Below are positions 25,530-37,911 of a DNA stretch of 64,000 nucleotides, one piece after another. The translations under genes were made by a program, and so were the position numbers. Source of the stretch: Halovenus aranensis (GTDB lineage Archaea > Halobacteriota > Halobacteria > Halobacteriales > Haloarculaceae). The stretch lies in assembly GCF_900100385.1 (NCBI RefSeq), contig NZ_FNFC01000007.1:124001-188000 (forward strand), given 5' to 3'. Position 1 is the first letter of the stretch, and each line of letters starts with the position of its first letter. The notes beneath the pieces are model-generated. The model was not told the DNA's origin. It searched no databases and saw only the letters and a list, made by a program, of their open reading frames with translations.

Positions 25530-27668
25530 TCACTCGGGGTCGAGTGAGACCCGGAAGCTCACGCCGCCGAGGTGTTCTCCGGGGTGGTCTGGCAGATAGG
25601 TCCCCTCCCTGCCACAGGCTGTCGTGAGCCGACAGACCGTGCGTTCGGGCGGCCAGACGACCTCGACCGCGTCGCCGTCGGCTCGGACAGTCGCTTCCTG
25701 CCGGTATGTGAGCGTCGACCCATCGGGCTGGACGAGTGTTACCGTCACCACGACGAGGTCTGTCTCGTCGAGGGCGACAGCGCCGGCGGCCTCATCCAGA
25801 CTGGCGTTGTTTCCGTCGAGTGACCACGGGACAGTCAGCTCTGTGTCCGGGTCGTCGACGGTGTACTCGACGGGACCGCCGCCCTGCGTCGTCAGTCGAA
25901 CGTGAGCGCGGTCGACGCGGTCGGGGACGCCGACGACAGCCTCGGCGTCGAAGGCCGCGGCGCGACGAACCGACAGGGATTCGAGTCTCGGCAGCACGTG
26001 TTCGCTGGCGTCGGCACTCCACTCGCCGCGGTAGGTGTAGCGATGGAGACTCCGGTCTGGATAGGCGTCGATGACCGCGAAGTCTTCGGCGGGGTCGCGG
26101 TCGAGCGCGTAGACGACCGGGCCGTCGAAGCCGGGGTCGTTTCGGAGCACCTGGAATGGGTGGGCCTGCCACTCGCCGTACGGTGTCGGGACGAACACGA
26201 GGTCGTTCTCGAAGTCAGCCGCTTCGACCGGCCCGTAGGCGGTGTCGTACTTTTCGGCGTAGGCCGCGTTTCGGTCGACGGGTGTCGCCGCGAGGACCGC
26301 GCTCGTTCCCGCGAGGACGAGGACGCTCACCAGCAAGCCAGACAGCGCTAGCCGCCGTGGAGAGACGGGACCGTGCGCGGCCAGTCGGGACGAGAGCCGC
26401 CGCCAGCCGACGACGAGGGCGACGGCGGCGAAGACGGCAACCGGCGCGAGCAGGTCGAAGTGATAGAAGGGGCCGAACTGCGAGACGAGGCCGTCGGTCG
26501 GGTCAGAGAGCGTGGCAAGCAGGTTGTAGTTCCCCCAGAACGGCACGTTCCCGAGGACGACCGAGGGCACGACGGCCGCGACCAGCAGTCCGGCGGTCGG
26601 GTCGACCAGACTGTCGCCTTCGCGCTGCCAGGCCCGGACGACGACCGCGATGCCCCCGAGCGCGAGTCCCGCACCCAGGAGGCCGGCGACGACCCACCGG
26701 GAGAGCAGATACCAGACGGCGAACCCGTTTGCCCGCACGGCGACGCCAGGCGTGTACTCGATAGCGTGGTCGAGAATCCGTCGGTAGCCAAAGCCCGGCC
26801 CGTCGAGCGGCGCGAACGCCGCGTATGGAAAGGTCAGTGGGTCACCGGTCAGCCGGGCGTTGTAGCAAAGCGTGACGAGGACAAAACAGAGCCCACAGAG
26901 TGCGGTGAGTAGCTGTCGGCGAGCTGTCGTCGGAAGCGGCCAGTACCCCTCGTCTGCGAGACACGCGAGCGCGGTGTAGGCGGCGTGTGCGACGAACGGG
27001 AGCGCGAACAGGACGGCCGTGTACGGCCGGGCGAAAAAGGCGATGCCGATGGCGAGGCCGGCGACAGCCCCCCACCGGTAGCCGCCGGTCCGGACGCCAC
27101 GGAGGTAGGCAACGGCAAAGACGAGGTTACACAGTGTCGTCGGCGCGTAGGGGAGAAAGGTTGCGCTCGTCACGAACGCCATCGGCGAGCAGGCAAAGAG
27201 AGCGGCGGCGACGAGGCCGACGCGTCTGTCGGCGACGGCGGCCCCGAGGATATAAACGAGGCCGGTGTTCGCGGCGGCGATTGCTGCGAGGGTGACGCGT
27301 GGCTCGCCAAACAGCGCCATCGAAATCGCGTACATCGCGGCCGGCACCGGCGCGTACTTCGGATAGAGGGTCCCGCCGTCTTCGACGAAAAACCAGGGGC
27401 GAAACGCCCCGACGAGGTCGCCGGCGGCTAACTCGAGTTTCCCCTCCAGCAACATCGCCGCCTGCTGGAGGTAGACCGCCTCGTCGTGATTACTGGAGTG
27501 GTACTCGAAGACAGTCGAGGCGAGAGCGAAGACGGCGACGCCGGTCAGAACTGCGAGTCCACCGGCCGCCACAGCCTCGGGAGACATCGCGCGGAGGCGG
27601 TCGCGAGCGCTTACGACGCGCTGTTCGAGGCTCTCGCGTATCCGTCTGCCGTGGCTGTCGCCGGGCAC
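25530..27668 (-). CDS. GT39-type (ArnT/PMT-like) membrane glycosyltransferase
   Basis: A 712-residue membrane protein with about 12 transmembrane helices up to residue about 445 and a soluble C-terminal domain with beta-rich features. The N-terminal loop has the GT39/GT83 acidic motif (STVFEYHSSNHDEAVYLQQA) and ends in a luminal segment (WFFVEDGGTLYPKYAPVPAAMYA). Such enzymes move a sugar from polyprenyl phosphate to a protein or lipid outside the membrane. The gene follows the ferric-binding-protein gene by 12 nt and the RGP-like glycosyltransferase upstream, all on one strand below an iron-box promoter, so it is probably the third gene of an iron-controlled operon. Acceptor and sugar are unknown. 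Confidence 0.78.
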   Translation of the reverse strand: MPGDSHGRRIRESLEQRVVSARDRLRAMSPEAVAAGGLAVLTGVAVFALASTVFEYHSSNHDEAVYLQQAAMLLEGKLELAAGDLVGAFRPWFFVEDGGTLYPKYAPVPAAMYAISMALFGEPRVTLAAIAAANTGLVYILGAAVADRRVGLVAAALFACSPMAFVTSATFLPYAPTTLCNLVFAVAYLRGVRTGGYRWGAVAGLAIGIAFFARPYTAVLFALPFVAHAAYTALACLADEGYWPLPTTARRQLLTALCGLCFVLVTLCYNARLTGDPLTFPYAAFAPLDGPGFGYRRILDHAIEYTPGVAVRANGFAVWYLLSRWVVAGLLGAGLALGGIAVVVRAWQREGDSLVDPTAGLLVAAVVPSVVLGNVPFWGNYNLLATLSDPTDGLVSQFGPFYHFDLLAPVAVFAAVALVVGWRRLSSRLAAHGPVSPRRLALSGLLVSVLVLAGTSAVLAATPVDRNAAYAEKYDTAYGPVEAADFENDLVFVPTPYGEWQAHPFQVLRNDPGFDGPVVYALDRDPAEDFAVIDAYPDRSLHRYTYRGEWSADASEHVLPRLESLSVRRAAAFDAEAVVGVPDRVDRAHVRLTTQGGGPVEYTVDDPDTELTVPWSLDGNNASLDEAAGAVALDETDLVVVTVTLVQPDGSTLTYRQEATVRADGDAVEVVWPPERTVCRLTTACGREGTYLPDHPGEHLGGVSFRVSLDPE

Positions 27669-27680
27669 GCGAATCCCCTC

Positions 27681-28805
27681 CTAGAGGTTCGCGCCCGCGT
27701 CTCGAAGCAGGTCGACCGTCGGCTGAAGGTTCGACAGCTTCGAGAGGTCGATGTCGGGCACGTCGAGTTCGTCGATAGACGGCAGGTCACCGACAGGGTC
27801 GACCTCGGGGATGAGTGGGTACTCGAAGGTTTCGACGGCGAAGTACTCCTGTGCTTCTGCCGAGAGGAGGTGTCTGATGAAGTTCCCTGCGAGCTCCGTG
27901 TCGTCGGCGGCGTCGATGATAGTCGCGCCAGCGACGTTGAACACAGCGCCGGCGTCGCCGCTCGTAAATGCCGTCGAGATAGGGGCCTCAGGGTTGCCGT
28001 CGAGGACGCGCTGGATGTAGTAGTGGTTCGCGAAGGCGGCGTCGATTTCGCCGTCGGCGACGGCCTGACTGGCGGCGAACTCGTCGGGATACGAGCGAAT
28101 GCCGCCGTCGACGACACCCTCGACCCACTCGCGTGTCGCCTCCTCGCCTTCGAGGAGACGCATCGCGGTCACGAAGGCCTGACAGGAGCCGTACGACGGG
28201 GCCCAGCCGAGGTCGCCCTCGAAGTCGGAGTAGGCCATGATGTCGTTCGGGAGGTCCTCGGCCGAGTAGGCGTTCGTGTTGTGAGCAATCGTCCGCCCTC
28301 GACCCGAGGTACCGACCCACTGGTCGGTTCGGAACTCCTCGCTGACGGTCTCGGTGACTGCCTCGGGCAGGGCCTGCGTGCGGCCCTCGTCGGCGAGTGC
28401 GCCGAGTGAACCGGAGTTGACGGAGTAGAACACGTCTGCGGGCGTGCCGTCGCCCTCGTTGAGAATGGCGTTGACGTGGTCGGTCGAGGCGTTGTACCGG
28501 GGCGTCAACTCGAAATCGTCGTAGAGGTTCTCGATGTAATCGACGAGGGGGCCAACGAGGAACTCGTTGCGGCCCGAGTAGACTGTCAGCTCGCCTGAGA
28601 GGTCGGGCAGTTCTTCCATCGACGTGCCGCCGGGGGCGTCCCGACCGGCCCGTCCCGACCCAATCTGGCCGATGTCTGGGGTGTCTTCGCTGTCGTCACT
28701 GCCCAGAAGGTCTGTACATCCTGCAAGGCCTGCGGCCCCCAGCGCGGTCATCCCCGCGAGGAACCGCCGCCTGTCGTAGCTGTCGTGTGAATCGTGTCCG
28801 GTCAT
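27681..28805 (-). CDS. Iron(III) ABC transporter substrate-binding lipoprotein
   Basis: A 374-residue secreted protein. A Tat signal (DRRRFLAGM) with lipobox Cys30 anchors it to the membrane. The mature part is a periplasmic-binding fold: LTVYSGRNEFLVGPLVDYIE, TPADVFYSVNSGSLGALADEG, SQAVADGEIDAAFANHYYIQR and NPEAPISTAF. These are typical of the ferric-ion/thiamine/spermidine group (FbpA, Idi). The Tyr pair in NHYYIQ fits FbpA-type Fe(III) ligands. It lies 5 nt downstream of the RGP-like gene in an iron-box operon. The matching permease is at 30917-32530; no ATPase gene is nearby. Confidence 0.88.
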   Translation of the reverse strand: MTGHDSHDSYDRRRFLAGMTALGAAGLAGCTDLLGSDDSEDTPDIGQIGSGRAGRDAPGGTSMEELPDLSGELTVYSGRNEFLVGPLVDYIENLYDDFELTPRYNASTDHVNAILNEGDGTPADVFYSVNSGSLGALADEGRTQALPEAVTETVSEEFRTDQWVGTSGRGRTIAHNTNAYSAEDLPNDIMAYSDFEGDLGWAPSYGSCQAFVTAMRLLEGEEATREWVEGVVDGGIRSYPDEFAASQAVADGEIDAAFANHYYIQRVLDGNPEAPISTAFTSGDAGAVFNVAGATIIDAADDTELAGNFIRHLLSAEAQEYFAVETFEYPLIPEVDPVGDLPSIDELDVPDIDLSKLSNLQPTVDLLRDAGANL

Positions 28806-28810
28806 GTGTA

Positions 28811-29980
28811 TCAGTCGTCAGCAGGTGTCGAAACGCGACTGTGGCCCTCGAGTCCGTCGAGGTCGTCGAGGCAGTCGAGCCAATCGAGCATGTGTTCGCC
28901 GACGTGGTTGAAGAACGCTCCGTTGTTGTACGACGAGAACTCCCGTGTGGCGAGTTCCCGAGCCATCGCCTCGAAGACGCCGGCGTAGGTCGTCGCGTCG
29001 CCGCCGACATCGTCGATAATCTGCCAGAGGTGTTCGTTGAGCTCCAGTCCGGCGACTTCGTTTGTGAGGTCGTCGAACGTCGACCGCGGTGCCTTGTTGT
29101 GCTCACAGAGGGGATACCCGTTGTAAATCTGCTTGCCGAGCACGTCACAGGCCCGCTTGAGGAAGACGCCGCTCCAGATGTCGTCGAACCGGCCCACGTC
29201 CCACTCGTTGTCGTCCATCGGGAGCTGGTAGAAGGCCGGAACCACTTCCCGGCGGAAGGCCAGATTCATCGAGCAGACGGTCAGATACTGGCCAGGTGCG
29301 GCGACGAAATCGCCGGTGAAATCGTCGCGGCTCGTCCGCGTCTGGGCCTGGCCGTCGAGGTCACCGTCCATCAGGATGCGCACCGCATCGAGGTCGGGAA
29401 CGTTCGTCCACAGCCCCTGTGAAGCGACCACGTCGTCGACCTCGGCCGTCGTCGTCTCGACAGACTCGTCCATCGCGGCGTATGGGTACCCTCGCGGGTA
29501 GAGCCCGTGTTCGTCGGCGCGCTGGTAGAGCACGTTTACCCACTCCTCGTCGGAGGAGACCGCCTCGATTTCGCCCTCGTAGGCGAGGTTCTGGAGGTGC
29601 CGACCGAAGAAGTCGTCGGCTTCGTGGGGCAGGGTGTCGTCGTCGATGAAAACGCCGTACTCGAACCGGGGGTGAGCCCACATATACAGCAGGCCGAAAC
29701 TCGTCTCGGCGTGGCTGGCCGCCGGCACGACGTGACTGTAGTTCTCGATGCCGTGGCGCTCGTAGAAGGTCTGCCGGCGGGTTCCGTCGAAGACCTCGCC
29801 AGCGACGCCCTCCTCCTCGAGCATCGCTTCCATCTCGTCGGTCTCACAGAAGTCCTCTGTCACGAGCACAAAGTGGAGCCGCGAGGTATCGAATCCGTGC
29901 TGTCGGGCGTTTTCGACGTACGCCCTGACGCAGTCGTACTCCCGTATCGTGGGAACGATGACGCAAATGTCCTCGCTCAT
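28811..29980 (-). CDS. Reversibly glycosylated polypeptide-like glycosyltransferase
   Basis: A 389-residue soluble protein of the RGP family ('alpha-1,4-glucan-protein synthase' in many haloarchaeal annotations). It has a GT-A-like start (ICVIVPTIREYDCVRAYVE) and an acidic DDD triad at 113-115 (GVFIDDDTLPHEADDF). Plant RGPs are UDP-arabinopyranose mutases or self-glycosylating proteins; the haloarchaeal substrate is unknown. The ATG at 29980 (MSEDICVIVP) is preferred to the TTG at 29992. It is the first gene of a three-gene operon (RGP, iron-binding protein, GT39). An 18-bp iron-box palindrome at 29997-30014 covers its promoter, so expression should rise when iron is scarce. Confidence 0.75.
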   Translation of the reverse strand: MSEDICVIVPTIREYDCVRAYVENARQHGFDTSRLHFVLVTEDFCETDEMEAMLEEEGVAGEVFDGTRRQTFYERHGIENYSHVVPAASHAETSFGLLYMWAHPRFEYGVFIDDDTLPHEADDFFGRHLQNLAYEGEIEAVSSDEEWVNVLYQRADEHGLYPRGYPYAAMDESVETTTAEVDDVVASQGLWTNVPDLDAVRILMDGDLDGQAQTRTSRDDFTGDFVAAPGQYLTVCSMNLAFRREVVPAFYQLPMDDNEWDVGRFDDIWSGVFLKRACDVLGKQIYNGYPLCEHNKAPRSTFDDLTNEVAGLELNEHLWQIIDDVGGDATTYAGVFEAMARELATREFSSYNNGAFFNHVGEHMLDWLDCLDDLDGLEGHSRVSTPADD

Positions 29981-29996
29981 CGTGGTATGCAATTGT

Positions 29997-30014
29997 TTTT
30001 AGGAGAACCTAAAA
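29997..30014. promoter_or_regulatory. Iron box 1 (DtxR/SirR-type operator)
   Basis: TTTTAGG-AGAA-CCTAAAA is a perfect inverted repeat with 7-bp arms, centred 25 nt upstream of the RGP-like ATG and overlapping its likely TATA (CTTTTAGG on the minus strand). It has the same arms and spacing as the box at 34736-34753. The TTAGG...CCTAA halves match the DtxR/IdeR consensus. Binding of an iron-dependent repressor here would block TBP. Confidence 0.7.
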
Positions 30015-30026
30015 GATTGTCGATTC

Positions 30027-30040
30027 TTAGGCAAGCCTAA
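30027..30040. promoter_or_regulatory. Iron box 2
   Basis: TTAGGC-AA-GCCTAA is a perfect inverted repeat with 6-bp arms, 13 bp from iron box 1. It lies between the RGP-like operon and the divergent acetyltransferase, whose TATA-like GCTTATGTG is at about 30073-30081. The paired boxes suggest cooperative binding by two repressor dimers. Confidence 0.65.
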
Positions 30041-30103
30041 ATGGTTGTGACGGGTTGGCTCACAGCCACGAAGCTTATGTGGGTTCTCGGGCACCGTCTC
30101 TGC

Positions 30104-30916
30104 ATGAGCGAACGACCGCCCGAGGAGCGTTCAGCGGAGCCGGTGACGGTCGCGTCGATGACCGCGGACCTCCGGGACCTCGGAGTCGCGCGCGGAGACA
30201 CTGTTCTCGTCCACGGTTCGCTGTCCTCGCTCGGATGGGTGTGTGGCGGTGCGCCCGCCGTCGTCGACGCGCTCCAGCGGACCCTCGGCGAGGCGGGGAC
30301 GCTCGTGATGCCGACACACTCGCCCGGGAACATGGAGCCGTCGGCGATGGAACACCCGCCGCTCCCGGAGTCGTGGCACGGGACGGTCCGCGAACAGATG
30401 CCCCCCTACCGGCCGGCGATGACGCCGACACAGGGGATGGGAGCCATCGCCGAGTGTTTCCGGTCCTGTCCGGGGGTCGTCCGCAGCGATCACCCACAGC
30501 ACTCGTTTGCCGCCTGGGGGGCCGACGCCGACGACGTGACCGGGGAGCACTCGCTCGAGTACTCGCTCGGCGAGGCGTCACCGCTCGCGCGGGTCTACGA
30601 CCGCGAGGGCCAGGTGGTCTTTCTCGGGACCGACCACGCGACGAACACGTCGATACACCTCGCGGAGTACCGGACAGACCTCGACGTCGGGACCAGAGAC
30701 TGCGGGAGCGCGATACTCGTCGACGGCGAGCGCGAGTGGGTCACGTGGGAGGATATCGATTTCAGCGACGAGGACTTTCCCGCCTGTGGCGCGGCCTTCG
30801 AGCGCGAACGTCCCGAGGCCTTCGAGACGGGCACGGTCGGGGCCGCCGAGGCGAAACGCATCGACCAGCGAGCCCTCGTCGACTTCGCCGTCGAGTGGTT
30901 CGAAGCAAATCGGTAA
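30104..30916 (+). CDS. Aminoglycoside N(3)-acetyltransferase-like protein
   Basis: A 270-residue soluble protein of the AAC(3)/YokD fold. Marks: DTVLVHGSLSSLGWVCGGAPAVVDAL, LVMPTHSPGN, PTQGMGAIAECFRS, RSDHPQHSFAAWG, and LGTDHATNTSIHLAEYR, which includes the conserved His region. It should use acetyl-CoA to acetylate an amine. Natural roles in archaea are unknown and may include acetylating an amino sugar or siderophore rather than resistance. ATG 30104 sits about 27 nt after a TATA-like element, and the upstream 21 codons are excluded. It is divergent from the iron-box operon, and box 2 lies 64 nt upstream of its start. Confidence 0.82.
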   Translation: MSERPPEERSAEPVTVASMTADLRDLGVARGDTVLVHGSLSSLGWVCGGAPAVVDALQRTLGEAGTLVMPTHSPGNMEPSAMEHPPLPESWHGTVREQMPPYRPAMTPTQGMGAIAECFRSCPGVVRSDHPQHSFAAWGADADDVTGEHSLEYSLGEASPLARVYDREGQVVFLGTDHATNTSIHLAEYRTDLDVGTRDCGSAILVDGEREWVTWEDIDFSDEDFPACGAAFERERPEAFETGTVGAAEAKRIDQRALVDFAVEWFEANR

Positions 30917-32530
30917 TCACAGCCCTTCCTGGCCGCCCTGTGAGAGCAGAATGACCATCGAGATACCGGAGATAGCGAGCAACAGGAGGGCCGGAACGGC
31001 CGCGTACTGATAGAGGAGGTTGCTCTGGGCGCGCCAGATTTGGGTGACGATGGTCTCGAAGCCAGTCGGCCGAAGCACGAGCGTCACCGGCAACTCCTTC
31101 ATCGTCGTCAGGAAGACCAGTGCCATCCCGGCGACAACACTGGAGCTGATAAGCGGCAGCGTCACCCGGCGGAACGCGCCCAGCGACGACTCGCCGAGCG
31201 TGCGCGCAGCCTCGACGAGTGTCGGGTCGACCTGCTGGGTACCCGAGCGGATGATGCCGACCGCCTGAGACATGAACCGGACGACGTAGGCGAACACCAG
31301 CATCGGCACCGTCTGGTAGAACGCTGGCGCATAATCCGTCCCGAAGAAGACGAGTGAGAGCGCGAGGACGATACCCGGGACGGCGAAGCCGATGTAGGTG
31401 GTCCGCTCGAAGATAGTCGACAGCCAGGAGCGGTGGCGTGCCGCGTAGTACGCGATGGGTATCGCAGCCATCGCAGAGAGTATCGCGGCCGCGCCAGCGA
31501 CTTCGACCGAGTTGATGACGTGGCCCAACTCGAAGGCGAGTTCGGAGCGCCCGCCGGCGGTGTCGGCCCGGACCACCCAGAGCAGGAGAATCCAGATTGG
31601 CACCAACAGCGCGAGGCCGGTGACGGCGAGCGGAAACACAAGTGCCGGCCAGCGCCACCGACCCAGGTCGACCGGTTTCGCGGGGTTGCTGGTGTCGCCG
31701 TCGAGCCTGTCGTCGGACCGAATATGCTGTTCGAGTGCCAGCACCACCAGCACGATACCCAACAGGTGCAAGGCGAGCAACGCCGCATACTCGGTGCCGA
31801 AGGTATCGTTTTCGACGTAAATCTGGCGGGTGAACACCGGCAAACGCATGATTGCGGGTGTCCCGAAGTCAGAGACGGCATACAGCGCCGCCAGCAGGCC
31901 GCCGGCCGCGGTCGCCGACCGGATGTGTGGCAGGGTCACCCGCTTGAACGCCTCCCACCGCGAATGGTTGAGGGTGCGCGCGGCTTCGAGCAGCGACGTA
32001 TCGAGCGTCAGCAACGCCGCCCGCGCGGTGAGATAGACGTATGGATAGGTATACAGTGTGATAACGAGCGTTGCGCCGCCGAGGCCGTAGATTTCTGGCA
32101 CGCGCTCGACGCCAAACGGTGCGAGCAAGTCTTGGAACTCGCCGCGGGGGCCGAATGCAGAGACGAACGTAAACGCTCCGATGTAGCTCGGAATCACGAG
32201 CGGGAGTGCGACAATAACAGTCCAGAACCGGCGAAAGGGGAGGTTCGTCCGCGTGGTGAGATACGCGAGAGGCACGCCCAGCAGAACAGAAAATCCCGTC
32301 ACGCCCCCCATCAACAGGAGGCTGTTGACAAGGATATCGAGCGTCTCCTGTTGTACGACGAGGTCGACGGCTCGGCCGCGTTCGACCTGGAAGGCTTTGA
32401 TAAACAGCCAGGAAACCGGAAATACCATGCTGGCTGCTATCACGCCACAAAGCAACGTCAGGCCGAGCGGCAGTTCGTCCCTCGAAAACTGTCTCCTGAC
32501 CGCACGGAGCGCCGCAACTGGCCCTCGCAT
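30917..32530 (-). CDS. Iron(III) ABC transporter permease, two fused domains
   Basis: A 537-residue membrane protein with 12 predicted transmembrane helices in two homologous halves. Each half ends in the EAA-loop signature (LLEAARTLNHSRWEAFKRVTLPHI and LVEAARTLGESSLGAFRRVTLPLI). This is the SfuB/FbpB layout of ferric-ion permeases, where one chain forms the whole channel. It is convergent with the acetyltransferase and directly abuts it. Its ATG lies about 28 nt from the TTATAA element and next to the iron box of the divergent oxidoreductase pair. It should work with the binding protein at 27681-28805; the ATPase is not in the window. Confidence 0.9.
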   Translation of the reverse strand: MRGPVAALRAVRRQFSRDELPLGLTLLCGVIAASMVFPVSWLFIKAFQVERGRAVDLVVQQETLDILVNSLLLMGGVTGFSVLLGVPLAYLTTRTNLPFRRFWTVIVALPLVIPSYIGAFTFVSAFGPRGEFQDLLAPFGVERVPEIYGLGGATLVITLYTYPYVYLTARAALLTLDTSLLEAARTLNHSRWEAFKRVTLPHIRSATAAGGLLAALYAVSDFGTPAIMRLPVFTRQIYVENDTFGTEYAALLALHLLGIVLVVLALEQHIRSDDRLDGDTSNPAKPVDLGRWRWPALVFPLAVTGLALLVPIWILLLWVVRADTAGGRSELAFELGHVINSVEVAGAAAILSAMAAIPIAYYAARHRSWLSTIFERTTYIGFAVPGIVLALSLVFFGTDYAPAFYQTVPMLVFAYVVRFMSQAVGIIRSGTQQVDPTLVEAARTLGESSLGAFRRVTLPLISSSVVAGMALVFLTTMKELPVTLVLRPTGFETIVTQIWRAQSNLLYQYAAVPALLLLAISGISMVILLSQGGQEGL

Positions 32531-32556
32531 CTAGCTCAACGAAGTCGCTCCAACGA

Positions 32557-32562
32557 TTATAA
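32557..32562. promoter_or_regulatory. Shared symmetrical TATA element for two divergent genes
   Basis: TTATAA is self-complementary. Its centre is about 29.5 nt from the permease ATG (32530, minus) and 28.5 nt from the oxidoreductase ATG (32588, plus), the right spacing for two leaderless transcripts. One TATA could therefore serve both directions. Confidence 0.5.
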
Positions 32563-32564
32563 GG

Positions 32565-32580
32565 TTTAGGTTTGCCTAGG
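32565..32580. promoter_or_regulatory. Iron box 3
   Basis: TTAGG-TTTG-CCTAG (32566-32579) is the same palindrome with one mismatch in the last arm base. It lies between the shared TATA (32557-32562) and the plus-strand start (32588). A repressor there would shut off both directions. Confidence 0.6.
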
Positions 32581-32587
32581 AGCGGGC

Positions 32588-33100
32588 ATGGAACTGTCGA
32601 GACGGGACGCACTCGCTGCGCTCTCGGCGCTTGGGACCACTGCTATGGCTGGCTGTGCCGCTCGCGCGCCACAGGAGGGAGTCGACGAGTCGGTCGTCGA
32701 GACTTACGTCGCGATTGCGGCGGTCGTCTACCCCACAGCCGTTTCGGGCGTGCCGTCGTTCGTCAGGTCGTTCCTGCCGGCCCGACTCGACCGGTCGACA
32801 CACGGCCCGGCGATGCGCGAGACCGTCACGGAGTTACAGACTGTGTCCCGCGAGTGGTACGACGAGGAGGTACCGGCCCTCGACGAGTCGGCCCGGGACC
32901 AGCTGTTGCGGGAAGTCGGAGTCGATGCGGCCGACGAAGACCCCGAGGGGACACTCGCCGAGCGGGTGCGCTTCTATGTCGTCAACGAACTGTTGCTCGC
33001 GCTGTATAGCTCGCCCACCGGCGGCGACCTGGTCGGCATCGAGAACCCACAGGGCCATCCCGGAGGGACGGACACGTATCAGCGGGGGCCATCGAAATGA
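32588..33100 (+). CDS. Gluconate 2-dehydrogenase subunit 3-like Tat protein
   Basis: A 170-residue exported protein. MELSRRDALAALSALGTTAMAGC has a Tat motif (SRRDALAAL) and a lipobox Cys. The body (YVAIAAVVYPTAVSGVPSFVRSFLP, ARDQLLREVG, RFYVVNELLLALYSSPTGGDLVGIENPQGHPGG) matches the gluconate 2-dehydrogenase subunit 3 family, which escorts a GMC flavoprotein through the Tat system. Its stop overlaps the GMC gene start by 4 nt (ATGA), so they form one unit. Iron box 3 controls the promoter. No cytochrome subunit is present. Confidence 0.85.
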   Translation: MELSRRDALAALSALGTTAMAGCAARAPQEGVDESVVETYVAIAAVVYPTAVSGVPSFVRSFLPARLDRSTHGPAMRETVTELQTVSREWYDEEVPALDESARDQLLREVGVDAADEDPEGTLAERVRFYVVNELLLALYSSPTGGDLVGIENPQGHPGGTDTYQRGPSK

Positions 33101-34686
33101 GCGACGACCGCCAGCCCGTCGCCGACGCCGACCTCTGTGTCGTTGGAGCGGGACCGGCCGGCGCGCTCGTGGCCGCCCGACTCGCCGAGGCGGGCCAGGA
33201 GGTCGTCGTTCTCGATGCCGGGCCGCGGTTCGACGCCGACGACCGACTCGCCAGACAGGAGCGAGCCATCCGGCCGGCGTACGACAGACCGGACGTCTGG
33301 GAGGGCGACCCAAAGCGAGACGCACACGCCGCCTCCGGCGAGTGGTTCTATCCGCTGAATCACGCCCGCGTCAAGGGTGTCGGCGGGTCGACGCTCCACT
33401 GGCAGGGAATGGTGATGCGTCTACACGAGGCCGATTTCCGGTCGGCCAGCGAGCGCGGCGTCGGCGTCGACTGGCCACTCGATTACGCGGACCTGCGTCC
33501 ACACTACGCCGAGGCCGAGCGCGAAATCGGCGTCGCCGGCGGGATGGACAATCCCTACGCGCCGCCGCGTGAGGAACCGTTCCCGATGGCACCGTTCGAA
33601 CCTTCCTACAGTGACAGCCTGTTCGCCGAGGCCTGTGCCGAGTTGGGTATCGATATGCACTCGGTGCCAAACGCCCGCAACTCCGAACCCTACGACGACC
33701 GCAGCGAGTGCGTCGGTTACGGCACCTGTCAGCCGGTCTGTCCCTCCGGCGCGAAATACGACGCGACCGTTCACATCGAGCGCGCCGAGGCGGCGGGTGC
33801 GACGGTCATCGACCGCGCCCCAGTCCAGCACCTCGCCCACGACGCAGACGCCATCGAGGCCGCGGTGTACGCCACACCGGACGGCGAGCGCCACCGTCAG
33901 CCCGCCGAGCAGTTCGTCCTCGCCTGTGGCGGCGTCGAGACGCCCCGCCTGCTGTTGCTCTCGAAGTCGGCGCAGTACCCCGACGGGCTGGCGAACTCCA
34001 GCGGGCTGGTGGGGCGGTACTTCATGGACCACCTCTTTGCCGGCACCGGGGGCGTCCTCGACGAGCCGACCCGCCAGAACCACGTTGGTTTTCTCACCAG
34101 CGAGTCCCACCAGTTCTACGACGAGGCCGACGCCGAGGTCGGCCCGTTCAAACTGGAGTTTTTCAACTACGCCGGCCCCTCGCCAGTCGAGATGGCCCTA
34201 TCCGGCGAGGACTGGGGCGACGACCTGCTGGGACGCCTGCGCGAGGACTACGGCAACCACGTCGCGGTGGGAGCACTGGTCGAGCAACTCCCCCGCGAGG
34301 ACAGCTACGTCGGGCTGGACCGCGACCAGACCGACGACCACGGCAACCCCGTGCCTGACGTTCACTGGAACGTCGGCGACCGGGCGCTGCGGACCATCGA
34401 ACGGGCAAACGAGATTCAAGAGCGGATACTGGAGCAACTCGGCGCAGAGATTACGTGGCAGGCCGGCCCCGACTCGACCGGTCCGGCCTACCACCACATG
34501 GGGACGACGCGGATGGGCACCGACCCCGACGAGAGCGTCGTCGACCCGCGTCTACAGACCCACGACCTCGATAACTGCTGGATTGTCTCCAGTAGCGTCT
34601 TCCCCACTGGCGGCGCGATGAATCCGACGCTGACGATTGGGGCGCTCGCGCTCCGGGCGGCCGAGCATCTCGACGACGCGCTGTGA
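33097..34686 (+). CDS. GMC-family FAD-dependent oxidoreductase
   Basis: A 529-residue flavoprotein, gluconate/alcohol dehydrogenase large-subunit type. N-terminal FAD motif LCVVGAGPAGALVAARLAE (GAGPAG at 17-22), then VGGSTLHWQGMVMR, a Cys-rich segment (CVGYGTCQPVCPSGA), and the C-terminal GMC block with HHMGTTRMGTDP and PTGGAMNPTLTIGALALR. It probably oxidises a sugar, sugar acid or alcohol and passes electrons to the chain, riding the Tat pathway with its partner. It lacks its own signal peptide. The substrate is unknown; placement under an iron box suggests use during iron limitation. Confidence 0.88.
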   Translation: MSDDRQPVADADLCVVGAGPAGALVAARLAEAGQEVVVLDAGPRFDADDRLARQERAIRPAYDRPDVWEGDPKRDAHAASGEWFYPLNHARVKGVGGSTLHWQGMVMRLHEADFRSASERGVGVDWPLDYADLRPHYAEAEREIGVAGGMDNPYAPPREEPFPMAPFEPSYSDSLFAEACAELGIDMHSVPNARNSEPYDDRSECVGYGTCQPVCPSGAKYDATVHIERAEAAGATVIDRAPVQHLAHDADAIEAAVYATPDGERHRQPAEQFVLACGGVETPRLLLLSKSAQYPDGLANSSGLVGRYFMDHLFAGTGGVLDEPTRQNHVGFLTSESHQFYDEADAEVGPFKLEFFNYAGPSPVEMALSGEDWGDDLLGRLREDYGNHVAVGALVEQLPREDSYVGLDRDQTDDHGNPVPDVHWNVGDRALRTIERANEIQERILEQLGAEITWQAGPDSTGPAYHHMGTTRMGTDPDESVVDPRLQTHDLDNCWIVSSSVFPTGGAMNPTLTIGALALRAAEHLDDAL

Positions 34687-34735
34687 CGCCGTCGTCAGCA
34701 GCCACCCGGGCACTGCTCTTGTTCGCTTCCCTCTA

Positions 34736-34753
34736 TTTTAGGCAAACCTAAAA
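34736..34753. promoter_or_regulatory. Iron box 4
   Basis: TTTTAGG-CAAA-CCTAAAA has perfect 7-bp arms with a 4-bp spacer, the same arms as iron box 1. It ends just before the TATA-like ATAAGTATAT (34755-34764) of the GT2 gene, over the BRE position. This is the fourth box within 5 kb. Confidence 0.7.
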
Positions 34754-34783
34754 CATAAGTATATCGGGCCGAAAGCCGGGATA

Positions 34784-35521
34784 ATGAGTCAGAAACAGCA
34801 TCTCAACGGAGATGGCGGCGGCGAGCAGACAGACGACGCGTTCACCTTCGCGGACCTGAGCGTCGTGATGGGGACCTACAACGAGGAGGAGGCAATCGGA
34901 ACCGTCCTCGAAGATATCGAGAGAGTCACCGACGGCGAGGCCGAGGTCGTCTGCGTCGACGGCTCCTCGGACCGCACGCCGGAGATTGCCCGCGAACACG
35001 GCGCGCGGGTCATCGAACAGGAGCCCCAGGGGTACGGCGTCGCGGTCGAGGAGGCGATTCGCACGCCCGACCGACCAATCGTCGTGACGACCGACTGTGA
35101 CGACACCTACCCGATGGAGCAACTGCCGGAGTTCCTCGCGGCCATCAACGAGGGGTACGACGTGGTCAGCGGCGACCGTCTCTATCACGGGGCCGAGGCG
35201 ATGCCAGCGTTCAACCGTCTCGGCAATCACCTGTTTGCGCTCACGGCGAGTGTCTTGATGGGTGAGCGCGTCCACGACACGACGACTGGGATGCGGGCCT
35301 ACCGCCGCGAGGTCATCGAGTCTATCGAGTGGACCGAGAACACGGGACTGTCGGCCGAACTTCTCATCCGCCCGCTGATGCGTGGCTACGACGTACAGGA
35401 GCGCCCAATCCGGTACGGCGAGCGCAAAGGCGAGACGAAACTCGACCCAATCGAAGGCGGGCTGGCTATCGCCAAATCGATTGTCACGGTCTGTCTCGAA
35501 GAACAGTTCCGGCGGCTCTAG
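34784..35521 (+). CDS. GT2 glycosyltransferase (dolichol-phosphate mannosyl/glucosyltransferase type)
   Basis: A 245-residue soluble or membrane-associated GT-A enzyme: LSVVMGTYNEEEAIGTVLEDIE, EVVCVDGSSDRTPEIA, a DCDDTYP metal-binding acidic motif, and the late TGLSAELLIRPLMRGYDVQERPIRYGERKGETKL block. It resembles enzymes that charge dolichol phosphate with a sugar from a nucleotide donor, giving the donor used by GT39-type enzymes such as the one at 25530-27668. ATG 34784 lies about 26 nt after its TATA (leaderless). Iron box 4 is directly upstream. Its TAG stop shares CTAG (35518-35521) with the convergent ATPase stop. Confidence 0.85.
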   Translation: MSQKQHLNGDGGGEQTDDAFTFADLSVVMGTYNEEEAIGTVLEDIERVTDGEAEVVCVDGSSDRTPEIAREHGARVIEQEPQGYGVAVEEAIRTPDRPIVVTTDCDDTYPMEQLPEFLAAINEGYDVVSGDRLYHGAEAMPAFNRLGNHLFALTASVLMGERVHDTTTGMRAYRREVIESIEWTENTGLSAELLIRPLMRGYDVQERPIRYGERKGETKLDPIEGGLAIAKSIVTVCLEEQFRRL

Positions 35522-37911
35522 AGCGGCCGGTGGGCGTTTGCCACGAGCAGTGCACCGCTCGTCGCTGCTGCGGCGATGGCGACCACGGGATTCAATACAC
35601 CGAGTACCACCGTCGGTATTGTCAACGCGTTGTAGAGGACGCCGAGCGCAGTGTTCTGTCTCACGCGCTTTCCGGCCGCGCCCGCGAGGTCAAACGTTTC
35701 TTCGACACCGGTGAGGTCGTCGTCCGCGATGGCCACGTCTGCGGCGTCGGAGGCCAGTGCCGTCCCGCTGCCAAGCGAGATACCCAGGTCGGCCTGGGCG
35801 AGGGCGGGGGCGTCGTTGGTGCCGTCACCGACCATCGTTACGGTCTGCTCGGCCTGGAGACGCCGCAGCGCCTCAGTTTTTCCCTCGGGCGGGATTTCGG
35901 CGAAGACGTGGGTCACGTCGGCCCGGGACTCGAAAAACCGGGTCGCCTCGGGGTCGTCGCCGGTCAACACGACCGTATCGACGCCGCGCTCTCCTAGCTC
36001 TGAGAGCACCTGTTCCCATCCCTCTCGTGGCTCGTCGCCGAGAACGACTACCCACTTCGCTTCGCCGTCACGACCGACGACGACCGGCAGATGACCGTCC
36101 GCGCGTGCGTCCGCAGCCGCCGACTCGACTGACGGGGGTACAGGCCACTCGCGTTCCTCGAAGAGGTCCGGGTGCCCAACGAGGTACCGGTCGCCGTCGA
36201 CGGTGCCGGCAACCCCACGGCCGAGGGTCTCGAACTCGGTCACGTCGGCCGCCGCTCCGCCGTCTGTGACAGCGTGGTCGCCAAACGCGGCCGTGATGGC
36301 TTCGGCAGCCGGGTGGGCGGCCCGCCGTTCGAGGTCGGCGACGGCGGCGAGGGCATCCGGTGGGGCGTCGGTCTCCCGGACGGTCATGGTGCCCTGGGTC
36401 AGCGTCCCCGTCTTGTCGAAGACCACCACGTCGGTCTCGCGGACGCGCTCGAAGACCGTCTCGTCGAAGACGACGATACCCCGCTGCATCGCCGCCTGGA
36501 GATTCGCCGCCACAGACAGGGGCGTCGACAGCGCGAGGCCCCACGGACAGCCCACCAGCACGACGGTCAACGCGCCGAGTAGGGCGGCCGTCGGTGCGGC
36601 GCTGGTCGCGAGGACGACTGCAGCGACTGTGACTACCCCGACAGCCAACAGCGGGACGACGCGACCGGCGAGCCTGTCGGCCCCGCGCTGGAGGCCGTGT
36701 GTCGCGCTCTGGAGGAGCCAGACTGCCGTCGTGAGGCGGTCGATACTGCTCGTCGGCGGGTCGCCCACACGCACGACGGCCGCCCCCTCGGTGACGACGG
36801 AGCCACCGACAAGCGGGTCGCCGGCTTCCTTGCTCACCGGGAGGGACTCGCCGGTGACCACAGACTCGTCGACGGTACAGCCCTCGGCCGTGAGCGTGCC
36901 GTCGACAGGGACCCGTTCCCCCTGGCCGACGAGCACCTCGTCGCCAGGTGTGAGGTCCTCGACGGCCACCTGCTCGGTGTCGCCGCCGCGATACAGCGTC
37001 GCGGTCTCGGTCTGTGAGATAGTGAGGTCGGTGAGGCGGTCCATCGCACGCTGTTTGGTCAGTGACTCGTAGAAGACGGCCGCGACGACGCTCGCGCCCA
37101 CGAAGATAGTCAAATCGAAGTACATGTCCAGCCGACCGAGCAGGACCGCGACGATGCTGTAACTGTATGCAGACAGCAACATGACCGCCGCGAGCAGGTC
37201 GGTGTTTGGCTCCCGGGACCGGATGCTGACGTACGCGCCACGGAGCAGTGGGAGACTGGTGAAAAAGACGACCACGCCCGCGACGCTCGTAAACAGCGGC
37301 AAGAGGAGAATCATGCCGCTGTCCATCGTCCCGCCCTCGAACCCCTGCAGCGGGCCGCCGAGCAGGTCCGAGAGCTGGTAGGGGTAGAGAACGACGACGT
37401 ACGGGAACATCAAGAAGAGGCCAAAGAGGACGCCGGCAGCGTATCGAAAGCCCAGCAGGTCTTCGAGGTCGCGGGTTTCGGCCCCGCCCTCTCGTGAAAG
37501 AACTGTGGTGACAGACTCTTTCCCGGTCTGCTCCCGGTCGGCGACGCGGTAGCCCGCGATAGAGAGCGCTTCTGCCAACGTCTCGGTGTCGGTCTCGTCG
37601 GGGTCGTAGGTGACGCGGACGCTCTCGGAGACGTAGCTCGCGCTGGCGTCGTGGACGCCGTCTTGGTCGAGTGCAGTCGATTCGAGAAACGACTCACAGG
37701 TCACACAGTGCATCCCGGCGACGTGAAAGAAGACGCGCTCGCCGTCGTCGGGGTCTGTCGCTACTGGCTCTGGGTCTACCGGCGCCGAATCGAGCGTGTC
37801 GGCTGCGTCTCGACACCCCGGCGAACAGTAGCTGTGGCCGCCCGTCTCGATTGGGTCGGCCGGTGCTGTTCGCCCGCAGAACTGGCAGTCTTCGGCCGTT
37901 GTCTCGGACAC
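35518..37911 (-). CDS. Heavy-metal P-type ATPase with CPW in place of CPC
   Basis: A 797-residue membrane ATPase. Order: a Cys-rich N-terminal zinc-ribbon-like segment (CQFCGRTAP, YCSPGCRDAAD), a metal-binding domain (VAGMHCVTCESFLES), transmembrane helices, TGES, the transmembrane motif VGCPWGLALSTP (C455-P456-W457), DKTGTLT, an HP site (AAHPAAEA) and GDGTNDAPAL. All catalytic sites are intact, but the usual second Cys of CPC is Trp. The overall plan matches the ATPase at 9381-11729. Metal choice or affinity may differ; a copper-delivery role for the nearby oxidase operon is plausible but not shown. Confidence 0.88.
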   Translation of the reverse strand: MSETTAEDCQFCGRTAPADPIETGGHSYCSPGCRDAADTLDSAPVDPEPVATDPDDGERVFFHVAGMHCVTCESFLESTALDQDGVHDASASYVSESVRVTYDPDETDTETLAEALSIAGYRVADREQTGKESVTTVLSREGGAETRDLEDLLGFRYAAGVLFGLFLMFPYVVVLYPYQLSDLLGGPLQGFEGGTMDSGMILLLPLFTSVAGVVVFFTSLPLLRGAYVSIRSREPNTDLLAAVMLLSAYSYSIVAVLLGRLDMYFDLTIFVGASVVAAVFYESLTKQRAMDRLTDLTISQTETATLYRGGDTEQVAVEDLTPGDEVLVGQGERVPVDGTLTAEGCTVDESVVTGESLPVSKEAGDPLVGGSVVTEGAAVVRVGDPPTSSIDRLTTAVWLLQSATHGLQRGADRLAGRVVPLLAVGVVTVAAVVLATSAAPTAALLGALTVVLVGCPWGLALSTPLSVAANLQAAMQRGIVVFDETVFERVRETDVVVFDKTGTLTQGTMTVRETDAPPDALAAVADLERRAAHPAAEAITAAFGDHAVTDGGAAADVTEFETLGRGVAGTVDGDRYLVGHPDLFEEREWPVPPSVESAAADARADGHLPVVVGRDGEAKWVVVLGDEPREGWEQVLSELGERGVDTVVLTGDDPEATRFFESRADVTHVFAEIPPEGKTEALRRLQAEQTVTMVGDGTNDAPALAQADLGISLGSGTALASDAADVAIADDDLTGVEETFDLAGAAGKRVRQNTALGVLYNALTIPTVVLGVLNPVVAIAAAATSGALLVANAHRPL

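Follow-up and report, generated by a model that had tools for sequence, protein, structure and literature searches.

Iron boxes suggest a shared starvation switch on ferric import and surface-sugar genes in haloarchaea

Why should a set of sugar enzymes share its promoter signals with a ferric-iron importer? The question is raised by a 64-kb stretch of Halovenus aranensis DNA (contig NZ_FNFC01000007.1, positions 124,001 to 188,000; hereafter "the window," numbered from its first base), in which a protein of the RGP/GT75 family, two glycosyltransferases and a sugar dehydrogenase lie among genes for iron import. An original prediction, made from the letters of this DNA alone, had described four palindromes in the cluster, had read them as DtxR-type half-sites, and had proposed a regulon joining ferric import to sugar genes. 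It had further suggested that a lack of iron might alter glycosylation, or that the enzymes might build a product able to bind iron. Follow-up across the order now places the cluster almost certainly within the haloarchaeal DtxR-type iron regulon, and the pattern of boxes and genes suggests that surface sugars are of use to haloarchaea during iron shortage, a shared iron-starvation switch acting on importer and sugar genes together. The core genes and their boxes are as follows.

25530–27668, minus strand: GT39/PMT_2 transferase of the GT-C type (GT39) with a C-terminal DUF7846 domain (PF13231, PF25230; AlphaFold model)
27681–28805, minus strand: FbpA-like ferric-iron substrate-binding lipoprotein (SBP) with a twin-arginine (Tat)/lipobox N-terminus (ferric-binding proteins of the PDB, E=1e-57)
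28811–29980, minus strand: RGP/GT75 family protein (RGP) resembling NDP-pyranose mutases (PF03214, E=9e-19; MtdL structures, E=7e-22; catalytic residues)
29997–30014, no strand: iron box 1, TTTTAGG-AGAA-CCTAAAA, 17–34 bp 5′ of the RGP start
30027–30040, no strand: iron box 2, TTAGGCAAGCCTAA, 28 bp from box 1
30917–32530, minus strand: iron ABC transporter permease with two BPD_transp_1 domains (PF00528)
32566–32579, no strand: iron box 3, TTAGGTTTGCCTAG, between the divergent GDH3 and permease genes and directly 3′ of a TATA-like TTATAA
32588–33100, plus strand: Tat/lipobox small subunit resembling gluconate-2-dehydrogenase subunit 3 (GDH3; PF13618, E=1.6e-4)
33097–34686, plus strand: GMC sugar dehydrogenase large subunit (GMC; FAD-glucose dehydrogenase, E=3e-83; also fructose dehydrogenase)
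34736–34753, no strand: iron box 4, TTTTAGG-CAAA-CCTAAAA, 5′ of GT2
34784–35521, plus strand: GT2, dolichyl-phosphate hexose transferase (NCBIfam NF041391, 412.6 bits, cut-off 375)

All four palindromes were found exactly where they had been predicted. Three of them are perfect copies of TTAGGN4CCTAA (starting at 29999, 30027, and 34738), a pattern absent from 100 dinucleotide shuffles of the window, and the fourth has a single mismatch. When up to one mismatch is allowed, the window contains four sites, all inside the cluster, against a mean of 0.21 in the shuffles, which never reached four in 100 attempts; at up to two mismatches there is no enrichment in the window (6 sites vs. 6.6 in shuffles) and only noise is seen. 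The tandem of boxes 1 and 2, which also occurs in close relatives, stands before RGP, for which an alternative start is possible at an in-frame TTG (29992). In the GDH3 promoter the box sits between the TATA-like element and the start, and in the GT2 promoter it lies directly 5′ of such an element. GT39, the 3′ member of the RGP-SBP-GT39 unit, lacks a box.

Conservation of the box and its link to iron

RGP is found in 223 of the 283 good genomes of the order and in 61 of its 78 genera. Within a sample of 80 haloarchaeal loci taken from genome records (1.59 Mb in total), a box precedes RGP in 79 (76 of them exact) and SBP in 65, while GDH3 has one in 32 of 52 relatives and GT2 in 50 of the 61 relatives where it is linked. 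Absence of the boxes from orthologous clusters had been named beforehand as the observation that would count against the regulon, and it is their presence that is observed. None of the 80 loci has a box 5′ of GT39 or GMC, as expected since both are downstream genes. Positions are conserved as well: in relatives with whole genomes, most RGP boxes end 11–22 bp before the start, SBP boxes 3–26 bp, and nearly all GT2 boxes 32–38 bp. The Halobacterium salinarum cluster has exact boxes before both RGP and SBP, and on a Salarchaeum plasmid all eight run in the same direction, in the order RGP-SBP-permease-ATPase-GT39-GDH3-GMC-GT2.

Altogether the 80 loci contain 239 exact boxes, which yield the consensus TTTAGGYNNRCCTAAA, vs. 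none for five permuted palindromes. Of these, 224 fall outside genes or at gene edges, where only 22% of random positions do. An exact box accompanies 184 of 479 cluster genes vs. 64 of 988 neighboring genes (Fisher p=8e-50), the neighbors in this comparison including other iron genes such as those for DpsA and siderophore-binding proteins.

What happens when the genes are separated? In Haloferax (genomes recognized by DNA similarity to Haloferax mediterranei), GT2 lies about 80–105 kb from the cluster wherever both could be placed, and has nevertheless kept a box with no more than a single mismatch in 10 of 10 cases; the same is true in 3 of 3 genomes of other genera where GT2 is 9–25 kb from RGP. 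These unlinked GT2 boxes usually take the form TTTGG-N4-CCTAA. Among the best GMC matches away from the cluster, 15 of 16 have an exact box, in 14 about 600 bp 5′, which puts it ahead of the small-subunit gene; no box accompanies the more distant GMC paralogues. Permuted patterns, again with up to one mismatch, gave 0–1 matches at GT2 and 0–6 at GMC. Because unlinked GT2 and GMC genes retain the box, the sugar-handling genes appear to be under iron control as a conserved regulon rather than through an accident of operon structure, and the proposed joining of ferric import to sugar genes thus holds across the order, scattered genes included. Judged by sequence, one box marks the predicted promoters of RGP-(SBP)-(permease-ATPase)-GT39, GDH3-GMC, and GT2, linked or not, and the persistence of this control in unlinked genes is the best indication that the enzymes serve one iron-related process. 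The asymmetry of the GT2 box is regular in Haloferax, Haloarcula, and others (e.g., locus L247, 1448–1461), and may indicate a weaker or differently read site.

The DtxR-type reading of the half-sites is borne out by other genes carrying the same box. Of 20 haloarchaeal genomes, 19 have it in the region of the siderophore (dat/bdb/iuc) operon, with 62 boxes in 356 kb vs. 0 for controls; without iron this operon is induced about 44-fold in Northern blots of Haloferax volcanii (PMC7407949). In the H. aranensis genome, many boxes stand next to genes for DpsA/ferritin, siderophore-binding proteins, a FecCD permease, or a DtxR-type regulator; there are four DtxR-family genes by PF02742 matches, one with a box of its own. 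A Halobacterium iron-binding-protein gene is among the known iron-responsive genes. In H. mediterranei, the iron(III) SBP E6P09_12005, whose gene is repressed along with those for the siderophore (PMC11218638), plausibly corresponds to the SBP of the cluster. The haloarchaeal DtxR-family iron regulon (FerR/Idr; Leyn and Rodionov, 2015, Schmid, 2011, and Martinez-Pastor, 2017, to the extent that these are cited in PMC11349517 and PMC11218638) shares with the present system the DtxR-type palindrome and the DtxR-family genes, as well as siderophore, DpsA, and ABC importer targets.

The importer and the sugar enzymes

The importer resembles the FbpABC ferric-ion type. Its FbpA-like SBP matches a ferric iron-binding protein of the PDB at E=1.4e-57 and has an NHYY motif at residue 260, the motif of the paired tyrosine ligands, conserved as N.YY in 64 of 65 relatives; the permease has two domains, and an ATPase gene is present at the cluster in most relatives (51 of 80). 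Unlike FbpABC, the importer here is part of the same predicted transcription unit as RGP and GT39, and the window cluster has no ABC ATPase gene, the closest one of the genome lying on another contig (61% identity over 298 residues).

RGP had been called an RGP-like glycosyltransferase. The family assignment stands, the protein passing the Pfam RGP cut-off, but the protein is less well read as an ordinary glycosyltransferase: similarity and catalytic residues point rather to the GT75 NDP-pyranose mutases, the best solved relative being MtdL, with a match beginning only at residue 84. Over 73 sequences, the metal-binding DDD (D113–115) and the glycosylated arginine (R163) are conserved, as are the equivalents of MtdL Asp195, Arg257, Asp260, and His287 (D196, R264, D267, and H294). 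These are features in common with MtdL, Hyg20, and plant UAM/RGP, while the setting is iron uptake rather than antibiotics or the plant cell wall. With a histidine at the position of MtdL Asp87 (see below), RGP is placed as a GT75 family member, predicted to be mutase-like and not a proven mutase.

GT39 is predicted to have the GT-C fold of transferases using lipid-linked sugars. Its AlphaFold model (pLDDT 86.5) matches ALG9, ArnT, AglB, AftA/Emb, and Pmt4 in fold, with 33 PDB matches at E<=0.001, at the top of which are ALG9, oligosaccharyltransferases, ArnT, and arabinosyltransferases. Like the ArnT, Pmt, and mycobacterial Aft-Emb enzymes, it combines this fold and a PMT_2 domain with a conserved DE pair near the N-terminus (D62-E63); unlike them, it carries the C-terminal DUF7846 domain. 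As for GT2, which had been thought likely to charge dolichol phosphate, its score well above the NF041391 cut-off agrees with that assignment.

GMC is similar over its full length to FAD-glucose dehydrogenase, and its C-x5-C-x3-C motif at residue 205 is kept in 27 of 27 relatives; the three cysteines presumably bind a [3Fe-4S] cluster, as in that enzyme. A Tat signal had been ascribed to GMC itself (33097–34686), whereas the Tat/lipobox signal belongs to the small subunit encoded just upstream (32588–33100). This subunit scores 22.4 for PF13618 in the window, against a cut-off of 23.4, and reaches 4e-10 in a relative. Together the two proteins are predicted to form a sugar dehydrogenase of the FAD/[3Fe-4S] type, its small subunit bearing the Tat signal. 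It resembles the FAD-dependent glucose, fructose, and gluconate dehydrogenase complexes in its large subunit, its cysteine motif, and the place of its small-subunit gene, and differs from them in its iron-box control and in that no cytochrome c subunit was identified in the cluster.

Possible uses of the sugar branch

Regulator family, box, and importer all belong to known kinds; it is the sugar branch for which no description was found. Our literature search returned no paper placing RGP, GT39, GT2, and GMC in an iron regulon, although the main regulon papers lay outside that search and may already list them.

The favored explanation, held tentatively and with somewhat less than even confidence, is a DtxR-type iron-starvation regulon, one branch of which is devoted to surface sugars. 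When iron is plentiful, a metal-bound DtxR-family repressor would sit on boxes overlapping the core promoter, as their position at promoters leads us to infer; when iron falls, the repressor would leave and all parts would be made. RGP might then turn a nucleotide sugar from the pyranose into the furanose form, or rearrange the sugar donor in some other way. GT2 would load a hexose onto dolichol phosphate, GT39 would move the sugar from its lipid carrier onto an acceptor at the outer face, and the Tat-exported FAD/[3Fe-4S] dehydrogenase would oxidize the sugar outside the cell, an order suggested by the enzyme families. The oxidized surface glycan or glycoside could finally hold Fe3+ near the FbpA-like SBP, which would feed the ABC permease; such an Fe3+-binding product is a guess, prompted by the pairing of a ferric importer with sugar enzymes at the heart of the module. 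That the product is a surface or lipid-linked glycan is probable. That a surface glycan directly serves Fe3+ capture is possible, and to be held more cautiously still. The boldest form of the idea is speculative and rather unlikely: an order-wide haloarchaeal mode of iron capture by a dedicated, probably furanose-containing, oxidized surface glycan, in effect a cell-fixed glycan "siderophore" built on demand by RGP, GT2, GT39, and the exported sugar dehydrogenase, which would bind Fe3+ and pass it to the FbpA-like importer.

Several observations weigh against the favored explanation. The position of MtdL Asp87, mutants of which are inactive (PMC9937993), is occupied by His90 in 72 of 73 haloarchaeal RGP sequences, as placed from the MtdL alignment; with this essential residue replaced, mutase activity is not certain. 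In Haloferax the cluster consists of RGP-SBP-permease-ATPase-GT39 only, GT2 and GDH3-GMC lying elsewhere, so that neither the oxidase nor GT2 is linked to it in every case. It is odd that a [3Fe-4S] enzyme should be produced under iron starvation. A fold search of the PDB with GDH3 gave no match, and over the whole genome exact boxes are only about twofold more frequent than a backward-read control pattern (15 vs. 7).

What else might the sugar enzymes do? One unlikely alternative is that the importer itself is glycosylated, GT39 adding O-linked sugars to the FbpA-like lipoprotein within its linker, or else to a partner, as a glycan that protects or tethers without binding iron. SBP and GT39 are indeed the tightest partners, both in the cluster with RGP even in Haloferax, the SBP has its Tat/lipobox N-terminus, and the GT39 fold is common to Pmt4 and ArnT; but of the 30 residues that follow the lipobox cysteine, only about 20% are serine or threonine, and the sugar dehydrogenase is left unexplained. 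Equally doubtful is a general remodeling of the envelope under iron stress, altering S-layer or glycolipid sugars with no direct part in iron capture. The dolichyl-phosphate hexose transferase would suit it, as would a boxed flippase-like gene 5′ of RGP (14 of 17 loci) from PF03706, a family tied to archaeal glycosylation (PMC5898192), whereas the placing of sugar genes inside a ferric-importer transcription unit across the order suggests a closer tie.

A more improbable alternative makes the exported GMC/GDH3 enzyme a sugar-driven ferric reductase, or the source of a diffusible iron-chelating sugar acid, with the glycosyl genes supplying its substrate. In its favor are the similarity of GMC to FAD-glucose and fructose dehydrogenases, the conservation of the three cysteines of the cluster motif, and a box that persists when the gene is unlinked, but GMC was found in only 32 of the 80 cluster loci (some of them truncated, and GMC can lie elsewhere) and a cytochrome subunit was not identified in the cluster. 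It is very improbable that the boxes respond, by way of SirR/TroR-type regulators, to manganese or some other metal instead of iron. Although a review (PMC3600143) describes Halobacterium SirR as an autorepressor dependent on Mn(II), and this genome has its four DtxR-family matches, the same box marks the siderophore operon, which iron starvation induces, and adjoins genes for DpsA and FecCD, and the SBP is of the ferric type.

Archaeal iron uptake and surface glycosylation have been studied apart, and an order-wide regulon that includes scattered genes would tie the two functionally. A dedicated surface-sugar branch would also assign a role to the archaeal RGP/GT75 proteins, now annotated merely as "alpha-1,4-glucan-protein synthase," and names a small gene set that can be deleted in H. 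volcanii and H. salinarum to find an iron-responsive glycan.

Neighboring and additional genes

Two further genes of the window adjoin the cluster.

30107–30916, plus strand: AAC(3)-type acetyltransferase, between RGP and the permease, sharing the RGP promoter region
35518–37911, minus strand: heavy-metal P-type ATPase, neighbor of GT2

The first, which the original prediction had left out of its gene list, is an aminoglycoside acetyltransferase homologue divergent from RGP, with a boxed promoter region common to both. It was considered as a core part and rejected, since it occurs at this place only in the window and in Halovenus salina, whose RGP is 94% identical to that of the window; the P-type ATPase, at the cluster in only 4 of 80 loci, is not core either.

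Elsewhere, a flippase-like membrane gene (PF03706) lies directly 5′ of RGP in 17 loci, 14 of which have a box (e.g., L118, 8804–9937). H. volcanii HVO_1859, a UPF0104 protein of the same large family, rises 11.6-fold without iron (PMC11349517); its identification with this gene was dropped, the family being large and the Haloferax clusters examined having no such gene. A DUF7547 protein near the cluster has a box in 12 of 12 loci (e.g., L134, 1814–2398). Further boxed genes come from contigs of one genome (G000). On contig 42, an 827-residue Tat lipoprotein with DUF5059 and a plastocyanin-like domain (L095, 5028–7565) has two exact boxes 5′, which hints at a copper protein induced under iron shortage. 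Candidate regulon members are a small DUF7552 protein with two boxes (L094, 5055–5390; contig 27) and a PAS/histidine-kinase-type protein with one (L096, 5051–6304; contig 55).

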